From positions 868,001 to 932,000 of the forward strand of contig NZ_CP048829.1 in assembly GCF_019355395.1 (NCBI RefSeq): 64,000 nucleotides of DNA, given 5' to 3'. Position numbers and translations under genes: made by a program. Shown here in pieces: positions 13,613 to 32,438 of this stretch. How positions within the stretch are numbered: the stretch's first letter is position 1; each line of letters opens with the position of its first letter. The notes below the pieces were generated by a model. The model searched no databases, was not told the origin of the DNA, and worked only from the letters and a program-made list of their open reading frames with translations. The DNA comes from Chordicoccus furentiruminis. Lineage in GTDB: Bacteria; Bacillota; Clostridia; Lachnospirales; Lachnospiraceae.

Positions 13613-14062
13613 TCAGGCGAGATCAGCCCAGTTCGCCGGATAGACGAAGTAAGCGTATCTGCACTTGTCCGGAGTCTGGAAATGAATGTGGCTGTTCTTC
13701 GGAATGTAGATGATGTCGCCCGCCTGGCCCGAGACGATCCGGCCGTCGATCTCAATCTCCAGATTGCCTTCCAGCACCAGATCATACTCGTCGTAGGTCA
13801 GCGTCCACTCGAAGCTGGTATGATCGAGCTCCATGATGCCGCAGCCCATCCGCGGCGCCTCGTCCAGAGTCGTCACATCCTTCAGCGCGACGCCGTCCTG
13901 CTGGAACCTCTCGCACTTCACCGTCGAGGTCTTGATTCCGATGATGCCGCTCGGATCCACCGTCTTCTCGAACCCGCAGTCCTCTTCCCTGCTGTCCGGC
14001 TTGACGGACTGCTCAATCACCTTCGTGATAATCTCACGAATCATCTCTTCGCTGATATTCAT
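13613..14062 (-). CDS. eutQ: EutQ cupin-fold protein
   Basis: 149 residues. The N-terminal helix (MNISEEMIREIITKVIEQ) resembles a microcompartment encapsulation peptide. A linker follows, then a cupin barrel with ELDHTSFEWTLTYDEYDLVL, GQAGDIIYIPKNSHIHF and YAYFVYPANW. In Salmonella, EutQ is reported to have acetate kinase activity, making ATP from acetyl phosphate. It lies between eutH and the eutS copy. Confidence 0.9.
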   Translation of the reverse strand: MNISEEMIREIITKVIEQSVKPDSREEDCGFEKTVDPSGIIGIKTSTVKCERFQQDGVALKDVTTLDEAPRMGCGIMELDHTSFEWTLTYDEYDLVLEGNLEIEIDGRIVSGQAGDIIYIPKNSHIHFQTPDKCRYAYFVYPANWADLA

Positions 14063-24178: not shown

Positions 24179-25549
24179 TTATTTCGTCATGAACACGGAC
24201 GCGTCGCCGGCGAGCTTGGTCAGCTTGCCGTTCTCAGAGAATCCCATCTTCTCCAGCCACATATCGAACTCATGGATCGGGCGGAGGCCGTAGATCTCAC
24301 GCAGAGAAGCCGCTTCATGATATCCGGTGCACTGATACATCAGCATGCAGTCGTCGCCTTCCGGAACGCCCATGATGTAGTTGCAGCCGGCGGAAACCAG
24401 CAGAGCCGCAAGGTTCTCGATGTCGTTCTGGTCCGCTTTCATGTGGTTCGTGTAGCAGGCGTCGCAGCCCATCGGGATGCCCGTCAGCTTGCCCATGAAA
24501 TGGTCCTCAAGGCCGGCGCGGGTAACCTGCTTGGAATCGTACAGGTACTCCGGTCCGATGAAGCCGACAACCGTGTTGACAAGGAACGGCTGGAAGCGCT
24601 TCGCAAAGCCGTAGCATCTTGCCTCCATCGTCACCTGATCCCATCCGTTGTGCGCGTTGGACGAAAGCTCCGAGCCCTGGCCTGTCTCGAAGTACATGAC
24701 GTTCGGACCGGTCGCCGTGGAGTTGGTGAGCATCGTCTGACGGCCTTCCTCCAGCATCTCGGCGGTAAGACCGAATGCCTCGTTGCCCTTCTGGGAACCG
24801 GCGATGGACTGGAACATCAGGTCGAGCGGAGCGCCGAACTTCTTCGCCGCCTCCGTCTGAGTGGTCACGTGAGCGAGCACGCAGATCTGGGTCGGAACCT
24901 CCCACTTGTTCTTGAACTCATCAAACATCTTCAGGATACGAGCTACACTCTCAACCGAATCGTCAACCGGGTTGAGGCCGATGACCGCATCGCCGCATCC
25001 GAGGGAAAGACCTTCCATCACGGACGCGATGATGCCCTTGGGATCGTCTGTGGTGTGGTTCGGCTGAAGTCTGGACGAGAACGTGCCCGGAAGACCGATC
25101 GTGGTATTGCAGTGCGCGCTGACACGCATTTTCCTAGCTGCGTAGATCAGGTCGAGGTTGCTCATCAGCTTGCAGACGCCGGCGACCATCTCGCTGGTCA
25201 GTCCGCGGGATACGCGGCGGATCATCTCGGTCGTCGTGTTGATGTCCAGCAGCCACTCTCTGAACTCGGACACAGTCCAGTTCTTGATCTCGTTGAAGAT
25301 CTTCTCGTTGACGTCATCCTGGATGATGCGGGTCACTTCGTCTTCTTCGTAGGGAACCGCCGGGTTGTTACGCAGGTCATTCAGTGTCAGATTGGCGAGG
25401 ACGTACTTGGCCGCCACTCTCTCCTCTGCTGTCTCGGCGGCGATGCCTGCCAGTTTGTCGCCGGACTTCTCCTCGTTCGCCTTGGCCATAACCTCTCTCA
25501 CGGATTTGAACTCGTAAGTATGGCCAAACAGTCTTGTCTTAAGGATCAC
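24179..25549 (-). CDS. eutB: EutB ethanolamine ammonia-lyase large subunit
   Basis: 456 residues, full length. It is the catalytic TIM-barrel subunit that cleaves ethanolamine to acetaldehyde and ammonia by a radical route. Residues equivalent to the known active site are present: Arg and Gln in SSRLQPNH, Glu in VMYFETGQGSELS and Asp in MGCDACYTNHMKAD. The start is GTG at 25549 with GAGGTGAT upstream. It follows eutA by 15 bases. Confidence 0.97.
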   Translation of the reverse strand: MILKTRLFGHTYEFKSVREVMAKANEEKSGDKLAGIAAETAEERVAAKYVLANLTLNDLRNNPAVPYEEDEVTRIIQDDVNEKIFNEIKNWTVSEFREWLLDINTTTEMIRRVSRGLTSEMVAGVCKLMSNLDLIYAARKMRVSAHCNTTIGLPGTFSSRLQPNHTTDDPKGIIASVMEGLSLGCGDAVIGLNPVDDSVESVARILKMFDEFKNKWEVPTQICVLAHVTTQTEAAKKFGAPLDLMFQSIAGSQKGNEAFGLTAEMLEEGRQTMLTNSTATGPNVMYFETGQGSELSSNAHNGWDQVTMEARCYGFAKRFQPFLVNTVVGFIGPEYLYDSKQVTRAGLEDHFMGKLTGIPMGCDACYTNHMKADQNDIENLAALLVSAGCNYIMGVPEGDDCMLMYQCTGYHEAASLREIYGLRPIHEFDMWLEKMGFSENGKLTKLAGDASVFMTK

Positions 25550-25564
25550 TTTGTATCACCTCTC

Positions 25565-26998
25565 TCATGTATTAAAAACGAGTGTCTTGTTCACAACTGG
25601 TAAAACCGTGCCTCCGGCAAGAGGCTCGCCGATATCGATGTAGTCGCCGCCGGCCGTATGAATCCGGTCGATGCAGATAATGGGCTTCTTGAATTCAAGC
25701 TGTACATTGAGTGCGTTGCCCAGCACCTTGCCGATATCGTTCTCTACCACTACAATCAAAGGATAGTCGCTGTCGATCACCTCCCTGGCCCCTTTTATGA
25801 TTGACGCTGCCAGCTCCTGAACCTCCTTGAAGCTGGAGCGGTTCTCACCTGAAAATGCAATTGCAATCTGCTCGATCCTGCCCTCGCTGCGGAACAGCGG
25901 GATCTGGCTCTCGATGGAATGAATGAAGGACTCGGTCGTCTCCTCGTCCGCCTTCGACACCTTGAGCACCGGAATGTTCTTAAGCGGCAGCTTCGAACGG
26001 TCATACCGGATCGTGCTGCCCGAAACATCCGTTGCGTGCGTGCCGGCGCCCACCACGGTGGCCCGGATGGTCTCCTTCGCGCGGAACAGCTTCAGCGAGC
26101 CGAGCAGAGGATTCTCGCTGATCGCCCTTCCGAGCAGGACGCCGATGTCTCCGTACCGAAAGACATCCGTCTCGTTCGTGTTATACACACAGTCCGCGAC
26201 ACCGCCGGAATAAGTCACCGCGGCAATCCGCGGTTCTTCCGGGAGCATATGCCCGTCGTTGGTGTAAAGGGAGCGGTGTTCCGCATCCGCCTCCTCCAGA
26301 TGGAGCGCCTTGGCGAGCTCCCCGGCCATCAGCCGGCAGAGCTTCATCAGCTTCTCCGGATCGGCCCGCTCGCCCGCCTCGATCGAGATGCCGTGGCTGG
26401 CGGCAAGATCCTTCGTCTTGTGGAAGATGTAGGAAATCTTCCCGTTTTCCACCTTGATCAGCCGGCCTCCGATATCAAGGCAGCAGACGCCGCGCAGCGA
26501 TCCGTTCTGATAGACCGCAATATTCGTGGTGCCGCCTCCCACATCGAGGTTGGCCACCACGGTACGGTTTTCCTCCGACAGCACGTCCGCTCCGGCGCCC
26601 CTCGCCGCCAGTACCGACTCCAGATCCGGTCCGGCTGTGGCGACCACGAAGTCGCCGGCCAGGTCCGACAGCGCCTCGAGCACGTCGTTGGCATTCTTCT
26701 TTCTCGCCGTCTCGCCGGTGATGATCACCGCTCCGGTGGAGAGATCCTCCGGCTTCATGCCGGCGGCCTCATATTCCTTCCGGACAATCCGTTTGATTGC
26801 GTCCGCATCGATCTCCGTACCGGAGCGGAGCGGCGTGAAGTAGATCTGGCTCCGGTAGATGACCTCCTTCTCGACTATACTGACCCGCGGGACCGTATAG
26901 CTTCCGGCGACATTTTCGATGACCAGCCTGCTGAAAACCAGCTGGGTGGTCGATGTACCGATGTCGATGCCGACGCTTTTGATTACCTGTTTCGTCAT
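25565..26998 (-). CDS. eutA: EutA ethanolamine ammonia-lyase reactivase
   Basis: 477 residues with an Hsp70/actin-like ATPase fold: [19 protein letters not shown] at the N-terminus, [20 protein letters not shown] near 148 and [20 protein letters not shown] near 258. EutA exchanges damaged cobalamin on EutBC for fresh AdoCbl at the cost of ATP. Length and motifs are normal. Confidence 0.95.
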
Positions 26999-27026: not shown

Positions 27027-28454
27027 TCATTCCACCGGCTTCATCAGCCTGTTCAAAAAATGAAAACGGATCCGGGTTCCGCGGCTGTCTGACCTGATGT
27101 CAATATCGCCCTGCAGTTTATCCTTCACCATCGTCCTGACGATGGAAATCCCGAGATGGGCGCTGTCCGGGTCATCCGCCCGGAAGCCTTCGCCGTCATC
27201 CTCCACAATGATCTGGGAATAAAGTGCGCCTCTCGTCACCAGGATGCGGACGTGTCCGTCGTCGCCCTCATGAAACGCGTATTTCAGCGCGTTCTGGAGA
27301 AGCTCATTGACGACCAGCGCCACCGAAGTGGCCGTATCCGAATCCACCTTGAAGTCATCGCCCTCGATGGTGATGCTTACGGTGTAGTTCTGGGGAATGT
27401 ATGCCCTCAGCGCCGTCTCCCTCAGGTTCTTGAGCACCTCGCCGAGCATCACGTCGTCCGCCACCTCATGAGCCAGCAGCTGATGCGTGTTGGCGATGGA
27501 GAGGATTCTCGTCATGCTCTCCGAGAGCACCTCCCTGACCTCCGGGCTGTCCGAGCGGCGGATCTGGATGCGGAGAAGGCTCGCAACGGTCTGGAGACTG
27601 TTCTTGATCCTGTGATGCATCTCGCGGATCGCGACGGACTTGAGCACCAGCTCTTTTTCCTGCTCCTTCTGCTTGGTGATGTCCCGCATGAGCACAGCGA
27701 ACGAAATGTCCTCCGAGTCAAGCGGAACCCGCTTGATGCTGAGCACCCGGTTTCCGACAGCCGCCTCCTCATAGGAGTAATCCCGATCCGCCGGTTTTGA
27801 TCCGTCACCGGTCATCTCCAGCTGGACGTTGGCGTACGGCTGGCCGATGATGTCCTCGACATACCCGACCTTCTGGTACAGCTTCCGGGCCAGCGAATTG
27901 CTGAATACGATGACGCCCTTCCGGTTAACCAGCAGCAGCGCCTCATCGATGCACTCCGTCAGCCAGTTGTTCTCCGGGCTGATCCGGGAAAGCGAGCTGG
28001 CAATGGCTTCATATCCTTTGCCAGAGAGGTGGAACTTCTCGTTGAGCTGAATATCCTCGTTGGTCCGCTTCTCGCGGATCAGCACGCCGATCACCCGTTC
28101 GCCTCTGCGGATCGGTTCGACCGTCTGGATCGTCACCCCGTTTTCCTGCGTCGTGGCCTTCATCTGTCTGGTGCCGATTCCCAGCCGGAACGTCCTTGCC
28201 ACCGCAGGTTCGTTCTCCTGCTTGGCGAACATGCCCGCCACTGCGGTCTTGTAGGAGGACGGAACCTTGGTCGGCTTCGCCTCCGCGATCACCAGCGCGT
28301 CGCCGCCGATCATCGGACAGTCGATGAACATATCCGCTTCCTCGATATCCGCCATCGGCTGCAGAAGACTTGACATATTCAGCAGCTCTGTAATCTCCTC
28401 ATCGGTCAGATCCGTATACTGGCGGCAGAGAGCACGGATCTCCTCCTTCTCCAT
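27027..28454 (-). CDS. eutW: EutW sensor histidine kinase
   Basis: 475 residues, cytosolic (no membrane helix). The N-terminal sensor (about 1-155) is followed by a PAS-like domain ([17 protein letters not shown]). A HisKA_2 dimerisation domain carries the phospho-acceptor His in [18 protein letters not shown], and the ATPase domain has [12 protein letters not shown] and [12 protein letters not shown]. In Enterococcus, EutW senses ethanolamine and phosphorylates EutV. It overlaps neither neighbour and lies 3 bases after eutV. Confidence 0.95.
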
Positions 28455-28457
28455 CGC

Positions 28458-29045
28458 TCAGTCACCCCTGACCATGATCATCTCAGCCACCTTCCGCATC
28501 GACAGATGCTTTACCTGACTGATATTTCGCAGATATTCGTAGGCCTCCTGCTCGCTCTTGCCTTCCTTGAGCATGATCTGGCCCTTTGCTTTCTCGACGA
28601 CTACACGGCTTTCCAGCCGTTCCTGCGTCTTGGCGACCTCCTTTTTGAGCGCCCTCAGATCCCGGCTCCGGCTGACAGCCAGCTCGATGCTGGGGACCAG
28701 CGACTTTTCATCAATCGGCTTGACCAGATACCCGCCTACTCCGCACTCCTTCGCCTGATTGACAAATTCCATATCGGTATAGGCAGTGAGCAGGACAATC
28801 GCGTCCGCCAGATCCTCGTCAAAAATGATCTTGGCCGCCGAAAGGCCGTCCAGATAAGGCATCCGGATATCAAGAAGTGCCAGATCCGGCCGTTCCCGCC
28901 GGCAGGCCTCGACCGCGTCAAAGCCGTCCGCCACATCTCCGGTCACTTCATATCCGGCCTCAATCAGCATCTCCTTCAGGTCCATCTTCGTCAGCGGCTC
29001 GTCGTCTGCAATCAGGATCTTCAGCTTCTTTTCCGTCTTTTCCAT
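28458..29045 (-). CDS. eutV: EutV response regulator with ANTAR RNA-binding domain
   Basis: 195 residues. The receiver domain has KILIADDEPLTKMDLKEM, the phospho-acceptor Asp in DLALLDIRMPYLDG near residue 58, and LLTAYTD and GYLVKPID. A coiled-coil leads to the ANTAR domain (about 130-190: KGQIMLKEGKSEQEAYEYLR). Phosphorylated EutV dimers bind paired hairpins in eut leaders and block terminator formation. The start at 29045 is set by GGCGGTGAT. The two leaders at 30046 and 31600 are the expected targets. Confidence 0.95.
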   Translation of the reverse strand: MEKTEKKLKILIADDEPLTKMDLKEMLIEAGYEVTGDVADGFDAVEACRRERPDLALLDIRMPYLDGLSAAKIIFDEDLADAIVLLTAYTDMEFVNQAKECGVGGYLVKPIDEKSLVPSIELAVSRSRDLRALKKEVAKTQERLESRVVVEKAKGQIMLKEGKSEQEAYEYLRNISQVKHLSMRKVAEMIMVRGD

Positions 29046-29085
29046 ATCACCGCCATTGCTCCGCATCCCGGACAGACCGCCTCAA

Positions 29086-29532
29086 TCAGGCTTCCAGCTC
29101 CTCCGCCAGCGCTTTCACGCCCTCCCCGGTCACACTGCTGATCCGGAAGATCCGTCCCGCGCCGGCCGCCCGGAGAAACGCCTCCGCATCCGCGATCTGC
29201 TGCGGCGTGGCGATGTCGATCTTCGAGACCACCCCCACGCAGGGCTTCGCGAACATGGTTCCGAACTGGGGCGGAAACATCGTTCCGTTCTCAGTCGCGT
29301 CCTGCACAAAGATAATCAGGTCCGCTTCCGTGGAGGAAACCATCAGCGCACCCCGGAATCCCCTCCGTTCCAGATATTCTCCCGGCGTATCGATCATATT
29401 CCGGTTGATGATCTGAACCGTCTGGGTCTTGCAGTAATTCAGTTCCTCATGATTCAGCCGCTGGCACAGCGTTGTTTTTCCCGCTGTTGAACGGCCGATC
29501 AGAATAATCCGTTTCTTTTTTCGCTCTTCCAT
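29086..29532 (-). CDS. eutP: EutP/PduV-type small GTPase-like protein, proximal copy
   Basis: 148 residues. P-loop GRSTAGKTTLCQRL lies near residue 13, MIDTPGEYLERRGFRG near 46 and GVVSKIDIATPQQI near 100. It is close to the standard EutP length. It lies between eutS and eutV and differs from the 174-residue copy at the end of the operon, including in its basic N-terminus EERKKKRI. Confidence 0.92.
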   Translation of the reverse strand: MEERKKKRIILIGRSTAGKTTLCQRLNHEELNYCKTQTVQIINRNMIDTPGEYLERRGFRGALMVSSTEADLIIFVQDATENGTMFPPQFGTMFAKPCVGVVSKIDIATPQQIADAEAFLRAAGAGRIFRISSVTGEGVKALAEELEA

Positions 29533-29545
29533 CAGGGCTCCCGTC

Positions 29546-29899
29546 TCAGGTCTTCGTGAGACGGGCAGGAGCGAAACCCATCATGTCGCAAAGAACACTC
29601 ATTACATTCTTCAGGGCCACTTCCACCGCGGCCACATCGCCCGTGATCACCAGCGAACCGTTGAAGCGGTCCACAAAGCCGACATTCACGTCAGCTGCCT
29701 TGGAGGCCACATCCGCGGCGATCATCGCGCCTTCGCTCGGTGTGATCGTCATGATGCCGATCGCGCCTTCCGCGTCCACGAGCCCCAGCTTGCCGTAAAG
29801 ATTCCTGTCCGGGTTCGCGATCACATGGGCAAGGGTCACCTGCTTGCCCGGAACAAATTCCTGAATGATTCGTTCCTTGCCGTCACTGAATTCCGACAT
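29546..29899 (-). CDS. eutS: EutS microcompartment shell protein (first copy)
   Basis: 117 residues with the permuted BMC fold: [40 protein letters not shown] and [20 protein letters not shown]. It is the first shell gene behind the leader. The start has GAGGGAGGAGC. Its start codon lies inside the end of a short leader frame (29883-30026), so the two may be translationally coupled. Confidence 0.93.
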
Positions 29900-30045: not shown

Positions 30046-30097
30046 AAAAGAGTAAAACAGCCCCATGAGATTTTGCAGTCAGCAAAATTCATGGAGC
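30046..30097 (-). terminator. Leader terminator upstream of eutS (EutV-regulated)
   Basis: Minus strand: a 10-bp outer stem (AGCTCCATGA with TCATGGGGCT), a small bulge, a 6-bp inner stem (TTTTGC/GCAAAA) and a five-base loop, followed by TTTTACTCTTTT. Its 5' arm (30090-30097) is the same sequence used as the 3' arm of hairpin P2, so the two structures exclude each other. Confidence 0.85.
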
Positions 30098-30153
30098 TAC
30101 GTCGCCCATCCGAATTACAAAACACATTGTGCTACAGCGCACTCTTGTGTTTT
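30091..30153 (-). promoter_or_regulatory. Dual-hairpin ANTAR antiterminator element of the eut operon
   Basis: P1 (30119-30153): a perfect 8-bp outer stem AAAACACA/TGTGTTTT, an internal loop, then GTGC/GCAC closing a hexaloop GCTGTA. P2 (30091-30109): ATGGGC pairs with GC(T)CCAT, closing hexaloop GACGTA. P2 overlaps the terminator. This is the layout of EutV target RNAs. Both loops have G at position 4, as known for ANTAR targets, but G rather than A at position 1. Confidence 0.8.
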
Positions 30154-30191
30154 CGCCAAAAAATGGAATATGAAACTGTCAGATTTATATA

Positions 30192-30220
30192 ATTCTACCG
30201 AAGGCCGGACGGGATGTCAA
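30192..30220 (-). promoter_or_regulatory. Promoter of the eut operon
   Basis: Consensus TTGACA (30215-30220), exactly 17 bases, then TAGAAT (30192-30197). The start of transcription should fall near 30185, about 30 bases before P1. The strong constitutive-looking promoter fits control by antitermination. Confidence 0.88.
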
Positions 30221-30313
30221 CCGGTACTGAGCACATATTTTTTTTTGCCTCACCGTTCCCGTTCCATCCGGTTCTTCGCCCGCGGACGCGCAGCGCTCCC
30301 GCTGAAGAAGTGC

Positions 30314-31450
30314 TCAGAGAAGCTTTCCTCTGTATGCCCTGCGGTAAATATCCTTGATCTGCTCAAGCGACACTTCCCTCGGGTTGGACGCGGTGCAGCG
30401 GTCCGCAAGTGCGGCGGCCGCCATATCGTCCAGCTGCTTCTCGAAATCCTCCTCGCTCACGCCTGCCGCGGCGATCGTGGACGGCATATTCATCCGCTCG
30501 ATATATCTCTTTCCCATCCGGATCAGCGTCAGCGCGCTCTGGCGGACGTTCGTATCCTCCACATGGAGGCACCGGGAAATCAGGGCGTACCGCTTCGCCG
30601 CCGGCGTGAGCTGATCCATGCAGCCCGCGTTGAAGCTCATCACATAAGGGAGCAGGATGCCGTTGGCACGGCCGTGCGGGATATGGAAGTGAGCACCGAG
30701 CGCATGCGCCATGCCGTGATTCAGACCGAGTCCGGAGTTGGCGAACGCGATGCCGGCCATGCAGGAAGCGTGATGCATCTTCTGCCTTGCCTCCAGATTC
30801 TGCGGATCCCTGTACACGGTCAGAAGGTTCTCACCGACCAGCGTCAGCGCTTTCTCCGCCATCGCGTCGGAGAAGTCGTTGTGCTCCTTTGAAACGAACG
30901 CCTCGACCGCATGCGTGAACACATCGACGCCTGTATCAGCCGTCACGGAAGGCGGCGCACTGACAACAAGCTGAGCATCCAGAATCGCGATGTCCGGAAG
31001 AAGGCTGGCATCGATCAGCGGATACTTCGTCTCTGTGGACTTGTCCATGATCACGGCGAAATTGCTCACCTCGGAGCCGGTTCCGCTCGTGGTGGGAATC
31101 GCGATGAAGCAGATCTTCTTAAACTTCTCGTCGATCCGGCGTGCGATGAAGACAATCGCCTTCGCCGCGTCGATGGACGCGCCGCCGCCGAGGCAGATCA
31201 CCGTATCCGGCACGAAGGCAACAAGCTTCTCCACGCCCCCGGTCACCACGCCGAGATCCGGCTCCGCCGCCACCTCGGAGTATACCTCATACTCCTTTCC
31301 CGCGCGGTCCAGTCTGTCGGTGACGTACTTCACCTTGCCGCTGACCGCCATGAAGTGATCCGTGACGACGAATACCTTGTTCATATTCCCGGTAAACTCG
31401 TCCAGACCGTCTCCCAGCACAATGTTGGTTCTTACTGCGAATCGTTCCAT
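30314..31450 (-). CDS. eutG: EutG-type iron-containing alcohol dehydrogenase
   Basis: 378 residues. It reduces acetaldehyde to ethanol, regenerating NAD for EutE. NAD-binding GGGASIDAAKAI lies near residue 88 and the TTSGTGSEVSNFAVI motif near 126. Metal ligands sit in TADTGVDVFTHAVEAFVS and GLNHGMAHALGAHFHIPHGR. The start follows AAAGGGGGAC. It is transcribed from its own promoter and leader, upstream of the main operon. No clear terminator separates it from the eutS promoter. Confidence 0.93.
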   Translation of the reverse strand: MERFAVRTNIVLGDGLDEFTGNMNKVFVVTDHFMAVSGKVKYVTDRLDRAGKEYEVYSEVAAEPDLGVVTGGVEKLVAFVPDTVICLGGGASIDAAKAIVFIARRIDEKFKKICFIAIPTTSGTGSEVSNFAVIMDKSTETKYPLIDASLLPDIAILDAQLVVSAPPSVTADTGVDVFTHAVEAFVSKEHNDFSDAMAEKALTLVGENLLTVYRDPQNLEARQKMHHASCMAGIAFANSGLGLNHGMAHALGAHFHIPHGRANGILLPYVMSFNAGCMDQLTPAAKRYALISRCLHVEDTNVRQSALTLIRMGKRYIERMNMPSTIAAAGVSEEDFEKQLDDMAAAALADRCTASNPREVSLEQIKDIYRRAYRGKLL

Positions 31451-31599
31451 GTCTGTCCCCCTTTGTCGGTTTTTCTGAAGCCCAGCCGGATCTGCCCGGC
31501 CGTCGGAGCACGCCCGGAGTTACCCCCGCCGGCCCGGTTATCATCCGGCCCGTCCGGCGTCTCTTAAACCAGATGCGTATGCGCCGCTTCTCATCGCGT

Positions 31600-31643
31600 A
31601 AAAAAAGCGTCTTAAACAGGCTGATCCGCTCGTTCAAAACGCT
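31600..31643 (-). terminator. Leader terminator upstream of eutG (EutV-regulated)
   Basis: Minus strand: a 12-bp stem (AGCGTTTTGAAC with GTTTAAGACGCT, two G-U pairs) and a 14-base loop, then seven T. The 5' arm begins inside the 3' arm of P2, so antiterminator and terminator compete. Confidence 0.88.
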
Positions 31644-31699
31644 GCATCGCATTCAAAAACTGTACAATAAAACTGAAATCGCTACGTCGCTTTTCAGTT
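31638..31699 (-). promoter_or_regulatory. Dual-hairpin ANTAR antiterminator element of eutG
   Basis: P1 (31671-31699): a perfect 8-bp outer stem AACTGAAA/TTTCAGTT, an internal loop, GC/GC, hexaloop GACGTA. P2 (31638-31653): AATGC/GCGTT with hexaloop GATGCA. Architecture and loop pattern G-N-N-G-N-A match the eutS leader, while the stems differ in sequence. Independent stems with conserved loops argue that the loops are what the regulator reads. Confidence 0.82.
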
Positions 31700-31715
31700 A
31701 TATTAACTTATAAAA

Positions 31716-31745
31716 ACGATACATCCGACGGAACCATTGTGTCAA
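31716..31745 (-). promoter_or_regulatory. Promoter of eutG
   Basis: TTGACA (31740-31745), an 18-base spacer, then TATCGT (31716-31721). A TG lies two bases upstream of the -10. Weaker than the eutS promoter. P1 begins about 10 bases after the expected start. Confidence 0.6.
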
Positions 31746-31794: not shown

Positions 31795-32346
31795 TCAGCT
31801 GTGCACCAGAGACGCGATCGCGACATGGTACTCCGGGAGGCCCCCCTTCTGCCAGAGCAGCGGCATATTGAGCACCTCCGAGGCCACGCCCACCAGATTG
31901 AAGCCGAGGCCGCTGTAGGAGTACCTCAGCTTCTCCGGAAAGCGGCAGGGTTTTCCCTCCGGTCTCGTGCAGCGGTCGCAGACCTCGCATCGTCCTGCCA
32001 TGATCGCGACAGAATCCGGGAAGAGCGTTTCCAGCGCAAGCAGCGCTTCCAGAAGCTTTCGCTTCGCTCTTCCGTAGTTCAGCTGGCAGAGTCTGTCCGC
32101 AAGCTCCGGCGAAAGAGCAGCCTTCCGGCGCGTCTCTCCGTCATAGATTACCTTCACCCCGATGATTTCCACGGTCTTCCGGTCTCCGACCAGCGTCTCC
32201 GCCTTCGGCGCGCCCGGCGGACAGGACCATCTGTTTCCGTACTCCGGGCACTCTCTGCATGCGGGGATAAACCGATCCGGGTCACAGTAGCGGCTCATCC
32301 ACTCGCTGACCGGCATCGTCACCACCCTGACTTCTGTCTCATACAT
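31795..32346 (-). CDS. DUF2284 predicted metal-binding protein
   Basis: 183 residues from the ATG at 32346, chosen because GGAGG sits 9 bases upstream; the earlier ATG overlaps that site. Cysteine motifs are C-x2-C-x5-RWSCPPG near residue 31 and MAGRCEVCDRCTRPEGKPCR near 120, as in the family. These likely bind an Fe-S cluster or metal. It is convergent with nothing and lies upstream of eutG. Whether it is linked to ethanolamine use is unknown. Confidence 0.82.
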   Translation of the reverse strand: MYETEVRVVTMPVSEWMSRYCDPDRFIPACRECPEYGNRWSCPPGAPKAETLVGDRKTVEIIGVKVIYDGETRRKAALSPELADRLCQLNYGRAKRKLLEALLALETLFPDSVAIMAGRCEVCDRCTRPEGKPCRFPEKLRYSYSGLGFNLVGVASEVLNMPLLWQKGGLPEYHVAIASLVHS

Positions 32347-32438
32347 CGCAAGCATCCTCCGGTCTTCTTACTCTTCTCCGATTGTATCACAATTCCCGCA
32401 TTCCGGCGAGATCCCGCAAGGGCCGGCGTTCTCTCCCG

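Follow-up and report, generated by a model that had tools for sequence, protein, structure and literature searches.

G1-N-N-G4-N-A6 hexaloops mark the eut leaders of a probable second class of EutV antitermination switches

The eut cluster of Chordicoccus furentiruminis, which lies in a 64,000-nucleotide stretch of contig NZ_CP048829.1 (the window), has two leaders that look like targets of the antiterminator EutV, with hexaloops that begin with G instead of A. Does this departure reflect a recognition code matched to the EutV encoded beside them, as the original prediction proposed, or a variation without consequence? In Enterococcus faecalis (E. faecalis), loop residues A1 and G4 matter for both induction and binding, and all eut seed elements, as well as nasF and amiE, carry A1 and G4 (PMC3369931); in the published position-1 reporter mutants, A was replaced by U and not by G. 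In the EutV-RNA complex, G4 is stacked on Tyr164 and held by Arg142, Lys149, and Glu160, whilst the loop is plugged by Met172 and its backbone is touched by Asn173, Arg175, and Arg177 (PMC8934654). The authors of that structure saw no specific contact to A1 and proposed a role for it in loop folding (6WW6; PMC8934654). Both the M172A substitution and a triple mutant abolished RNA binding (PMC8934654). In addition, SELEX with NasR from random RNA preferred loops with A1 and G4 that are closed by a C:G pair (PMC7496416), and actinobacterial ANTAR targets show A1 and G4 at more than 50% (PMC8164766). The rule cited in the original prediction, A1 and G4, is the one given in PMC3369931 and PMC8934654.

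Sequence and folding agree with the architecture first described for this locus and place it on the minus strand: two leaders, each with two hexaloop hairpins (P1 and P2) and a terminator that overlaps P2. The features are as follows:

30192..30220, minus: sigma70-like promoter of leader 1 (TTGACA-17-TAGAAT; consensus scan, 11/12)
30153-30046, minus: leader 1 (sequence and fold)
30119..30153, minus: leader 1 P1 hairpin, with an 8-bp outer stem, a 3x2 internal loop, and a 4-bp inner stem (sequence, fold)
30138-30133, minus: leader 1 P1 hexaloop, GCUGUA (sequence, fold)
30092..30109, minus: leader 1 P2 hairpin, with hexaloop GACGUA at 30103-30098 (sequence, fold)
30046..30099, minus: leader 1 terminator, with its stem at 30099-30058 followed by UUUUACUCUUUU (fold)
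31716..31745, minus: sigma70-like promoter of leader 2 (TTGACA-18-TATCGT; consensus scan, 10/12)
31705-31602, minus: leader 2 (sequence and fold)
31665..31705, minus: leader 2 P1 hairpin, with outer 5-bp and 8-bp stems, a 1x2 internal loop, and a 2-bp inner stem
31688-31683, minus: leader 2 P1 hexaloop, GACGUA (sequence, fold)
31635..31656, minus: leader 2 P2 hairpin, with hexaloop GAUGCA at 31648-31643 (sequence, fold)
31602..31643, minus: leader 2 terminator, stem 31643-31606, then a U run (fold)

All four loops, which read as originally reported, lie within GC-N6-GC with a C:G closing pair, and all have G4 and A6. Because G1 occupies the first position in 4/4, contrary to the A1 rule, we filed the leaders as variant. 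The 8-bp outer stems of P1 were also borne out: 30153-30146 pairs with 30126-30119 in leader 1 (AAAACACA/UGUGUUUU) and 31699-31692 with 31678-31671 in leader 2 (AACUGAAA/UUUCAGUU), each accompanied by an internal loop and with stem sequences unrelated between the leaders. In both, the 3′ arm of P2 is common to the 5′ arm of the terminator, which as an isolated segment folds at -24.0 kcal/mol in leader 1 and -18.9 kcal/mol in leader 2; the A6 of P2 also belongs to the terminator stem, and that of P1 does not. The linkers measure 21 nt and about 26 nt from inner stem to inner stem, and shrink to about 10 nt in both leaders when the P1 outer stems form (16 nt in leader 2 if the 8-bp stem alone forms); those of the E. 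faecalis leaders are 5-12 nt.

The letters of the motif are hardly informative by themselves. The bare 10-mer GCGNNGNAGC occurs 24 times in the window, compared with 14.9 +/- 3.8 in shuffles, and its paired form is found at 19 places genome-wide, both leaders included, compared with 15 for a reversed-pattern control. The evidence for the leaders is therefore pairing, terminator overlap, and position. Neither leader matched an Rfam family at gathering score, and with E up to 10 there were just two weak plus-strand matches of snoRNA type. We also considered a regulon extending beyond eut, and dropped it for this genome, given that none of the four places fetched, out of the 17 other paired 10-mers, had a dual-hairpin leader.

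Leader 1 precedes a run of BMC-eutP-eutV-eutW-eutA-eutB genes, and leader 2 a gene for an iron alcohol dehydrogenase. Domains were called with Pfam on eight proteins from the cluster; gene names that go beyond these calls are putative.

24179..26998, minus: EutA and EutB genes, downstream (Pfam EutA, EutB)
27027..28454, minus: EutW-type sensor kinase (Pfam PdtaS GAF, HisKA_2, HATPase)
28458..29066, minus: EutV, REC-ANTAR response regulator (Pfam, PDB sequence match 6wsh/6ww6, residue map, model)
29086..29532, minus: EutP (Pfam PduV-EutP)
29546..29899, minus: BMC shell protein, encoded first after leader 1 (Pfam BMC)
30314..31450, minus: iron alcohol dehydrogenase behind leader 2 (Pfam Fe-ADH), presumably eutG-like

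A gene for a DUF2284 putative metal-binding protein (31795-32355, minus) immediately precedes the promoter of leader 2, and a Group II intron D1-D4-3 match (1-174, minus) is interrupted by the window edge. An ungapped alignment of EutV to the PDB chain showed that, in E. faecalis numbering, R142, K149, E160, Y164, and R168 are kept, while Q172, V173, H175, and S177 stand in place of M172, N173, R175, and R177. The phospho-acceptor Asp54 is present, and the AlphaFold2 model (mean pLDDT 88.6) has 6ww6_B and 6wsh_A as its best Foldseek matches.

EutV-like loci were collected by searching genomes at the ranks of genus, family, order, class, and phylum, from which 53 stretches, a subset of the matches, were fetched, and by a scan of genome contigs (best 80 of 177 relatives). 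Dropping 13 identical sequences left 121 of 134 hits. On the EutV strand, a leader was defined by a pair of hexaloops, each closed by C:G and carrying G4, the second of which overlapped a terminator; loop positions 1, 2, 3, 5, and 6 were left free. With thresholds chosen after inspection of the first loci, this scanner found 107 leaders at 75 of the 121 distinct proteins, in 2.14 Mb; the reverse strand yielded 2, and five shuffled sets gave 0.6 on average. The other 46 EutVs, 21 of them of variant type at 172, had no leader above the thresholds. The counts include a few P1 picks that are likely wrong (L025 CGGGAC, L034 CCAGCC, L040 TCGGAG, and L021 GGCGAT) and exclude sub-threshold leads such as L053 GGCGTA/GAAGTA, L043 GCGGAA/GGCGTA, L010 AACGAA/GAAGAA, L077 ATCGGA/AAAGAA, L084 AACGGT/GATGAA, L113 AACGGA/AATGGA, L114 ACTGGA/AATGGA, and L056. 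The last is a Synergistaceae EutV with Q172 and S175, and its weak candidate leader (GATGGT/GACGAA) is a possible further case outside the Firmicutes. A scanner match with loops CGTGCT/GATGTG and a terminator at L018:13720-13757 (plus strand), just upstream of an ORF at 13828 that we take to be asparagine-synthase-like, may be due to chance.

The most similar EutV among the best 80 of 177 relatives (L020, 83%) is on a sequence that ends before the leaders. In the closest surveyed relatives with a detected leader, L003 (GATGAA/GACGCA) and L021 (GGCGAT/GGCGCA), three of the four loops have the G-N-N-G-N-A pattern; the fourth, read as GGCGAT, may be GATGTA in another register.

Position 1 of the loop differed between EutV classes. 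The 36 EutVs with Met172 and Arg175 had A1 in 98/112 loops and G1 in 14/112 (P1, 53 A and 3 G; P2, 45 A and 11 G). The 31 EutVs lacking both residues, the present one included, had G1 in 74/80 loops, 71 of these with A6 (G1 in 36/40 P1 and 38/40 P2). Seven Met172 EutVs with neither R nor Q at 175 were intermediate (G1 in 12/20 loops; P1, 5 A and 5 G; P2, 3 A and 7 G), and the single Met172/Gln175 protein had A1 in P1 and P2. When neither G4 nor the closing pair was imposed, G1 appeared in 58/76, G4 in 60/76, and A6 in 60/76 loops of the variant class, and A1 in 92/138 and G4 in 104/138 loops of Met172 EutVs. The G4 pocket (R142, K149, E160, and Y164) was kept in 31/31 variant EutVs with leaders. 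GC drift was rejected as a cause of G1: within each class, G1 did not clearly depend on the GC content of the locus, and at 35-45% GC, G1 was found in 14/14 variant loops and 7/44 canonical ones. We also set aside loss of all four contacts (172, 173, 175, and 177) as a signature, and dropped 173 and 177 because both vary within canonical EutVs. The idea of a variant code is thus supported in part, and it marks a class of 31 EutVs in the survey and not a single odd operon.

When EutV columns were scored by their correlation with G1, 175 ranked first (phi 0.85) and 172 second (0.84), followed by 181 (0.73) and then 161 and 138 (0.70). Both 172 and 175 contact the RNA in the complex solved for E. 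faecalis, which argues against the best-surviving alternative. In that alternative, position 1 is simply a purine, and the ancestor of a single EutV clade acquired G1 and A6 and passed them on with no matched code, so that both EutV classes would bind A1 and G1 loops alike. Most variant EutVs do form one clade, and independent changes are few: on a EutV tree built without columns 170-178, parsimony counted six changes at 175, two at 172, and seven for G1 in P1. An independent-pairs sign test was discarded, as it offered just two independent pairs on well-supported branches, which is too few. A two-trait likelihood-ratio test of dependent evolution with P1-G1 gave p = 6e-5 for 175 and for 172, and among comparison columns drawn from the top of the correlation ranking, not at random, 0.002 for T77, 0.006 for Q161, and 0.06 for 181. 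With all loops pooled, the values were 1e-4 for 175, a weaker 0.02 for 172, 0.03 for Q161, 0.16 for T77, and 0.55 for 181. T77 and Q161 are not among the listed RNA contacts, yet they are nominally significant for P1-G1, and therefore shared ancestry has not been fully removed from these statistics. Simple inheritance is likewise favored by the G1 already present in canonical loops and by the use of A-to-U changes in the E. faecalis reporter mutants. However, the stems and linkers listed for the variant class are very diverse while G1 and A6 persist, and the SELEX with NasR selected A1 from random RNA. G1 is also raised in other lineages without Arg175 (L110/L111, L013-L015, and L011), although L111 and L011 are mixed and L010, L016, and L122 have mostly A1 despite the absence of Arg175. 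On balance, we consider inheritance without a matched code rather improbable, though it carries far more weight than the alternatives below.

Compared with the original prediction, then, the match between loop and EutV held up to the extent that position 1 co-varies with EutV across 75 loci and that its best predictors are contact residues, at which this EutV has Q172 and H175. It needs to be amended in that the trait belongs to a class of EutVs and not to this one alone, that G1 also accompanies canonical EutVs, that independent changes are few, and that two columns outside the listed RNA contacts also reach nominal significance.

The last position of the loop follows the same gradient, with A6 in 73/80 variant, 14/20 intermediate, and 54/112 canonical loops; in P1, it is found in 34/40 variant leaders. 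Within Met172 EutVs, A6 accompanied G1 in 20/26 loops, as opposed to 49/108 loops without G1 (p = 0.004). Such an association in the presence of Met172 is what one would expect if G1.A6 were an RNA-only stabilizer that makes up for inner stems as weak as the 2-bp one in leader 2 P1 and acts independently of EutV. Energy modeling is compatible with this, since closing the loop with a G.A mismatch gains about 0.8 kcal/mol in stability over A.N. The model favors G.G as much as G.A. However, G1 and A6 are found on long perfect stems too (e.g., in L049, where GAAGTA caps a P1 stem of 10 bp), and in the Arg175 class alone their link was not significant (10/14 vs. 44/98, p = 0.087). We therefore regard stabilization alone as a very improbable explanation.

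The genome encodes a second ANTAR protein (L018:9746-10282; G000:C1:2750748-2751281), directly downstream of glnA and with ANTAR as its sole Pfam hit; a relative at E <= 1e-15 is found in 81/120 family genomes, and the glnA-ANTAR order on one strand in 21/21 loci examined. The presence of this protein is the one point in favor of the notion that the leaders serve another regulator, or are plain attenuators, which we find scarcely credible given that they lie within the cluster encoding EutV and EutW, that such leaders occur at 75/121 EutV-like loci, and that none of the 21 glnA-linked loci showed a dual-hexaloop leader on the strand of the ANTAR gene. The glnA-linked ANTARs have Met172, with G at 175 in 19/21 and S in 2/21. 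Around the glnA start, 8/21 loci (L152, L159, L145, L150, L144, L160, L147, and L157) have C:G-closed A1/G4 hexaloops, mostly AAGGGY and five of them overlapping a terminator, which are candidate single-hexaloop ANTAR targets. Their A1 loops beside Met172 and mostly G175 weaken the case for Arg175 alone as the determinant. In the present genome, the glnA leader has G1 (GAGGGT) and the ANTAR has S175.

The reading we prefer, and which we hold to be probable from sequence comparison, is that the two leaders are EutV antitermination switches of a second class, in which EutVs without Met172 and Arg175 go with G1-N-N-G4-N-A6 loops, the canonical counterpart being EutVs with Met172 and Arg175 that go with A1-N-N-G4-N-N. 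By analogy with E. faecalis EutV, the nascent RNA would fold the terminator without ethanolamine; with it, EutW would phosphorylate EutV, and dimeric EutV would bind the hexaloop of P1 and then that of P2, blocking the terminator by holding P2. The retained pocket of R142, K149, E160, and Y164 probably continues to read G4. A cross-loop G1.A6 mismatch pair would shape the loop and flip G4 out, and so take over, on the RNA side, the role that the Met172 plug of the protein has in canonical EutVs. Such a pair is supported by the link between G1 and A6 within Met172 EutVs and by the modeled advantage of G.A over A.N closure, though G.G fares equally well in that model. More tentatively, and with somewhat less than even confidence, we suggest that protein-RNA co-evolution gave rise to two ANTAR antiterminator classes, one in which the Met plug and Arg175 shape an A1 loop, and one, seen across Lachnospiraceae, Oscillospiraceae, and their relatives, in which the plug was lost and a G1.A6 cross-loop pair took over. 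The two may be orthogonal, each EutV acting poorly on the loops of the other.

A natural class in which A1 and Met172 are lost together bears on why A1 is conserved and why Met is essential for EutV-RNA binding. To take in this class, the published search rule would have to be broadened, since its A1/G4 seeds may let such leaders escape; the class could also supply orthogonal antitermination parts.

Among known systems, the actinobacterial ANTAR-target RNAs share dual stem-loops and hexaloops under looser loop rules, with A1 and G4 at more than 50%; the passages on them in PMC8164766 mention no G1/A6 subclass. The titles and abstracts found in literature searches described neither a G1/A6 class nor a class of EutVs lacking Met172, and published supplementary hit tables may hold such leaders unremarked. 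The nasF and amiE leaders, recognized by the ANTAR domains of NasR and AmiR, are also two-hexaloop antiterminators, and the C:G closing pair and G4 preferred by NasR (PMC7496416) are those seen here. They differ in having A1 (PMC3369931), the residue that NasR also preferred, and NasR and AmiR differ in their sensor domains and in the genes they regulate. Closest are the EutV and eut leaders of E. faecalis (6WSH, 6WW6; PMC3369931, PMC8934654), which share with the present system the REC-ANTAR protein, its fold and G4 pocket, the dual hexaloop hairpins, the overlap of P2 with the terminator, and the linkage to eut genes. Relative to them, the leaders described here have G1 and A6 instead of following the A1 rule, their P1 is extended by an outer stem compared with the short one described for E. 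faecalis, and in their EutV the residues M172 and R175 are replaced by Q172 and H175.
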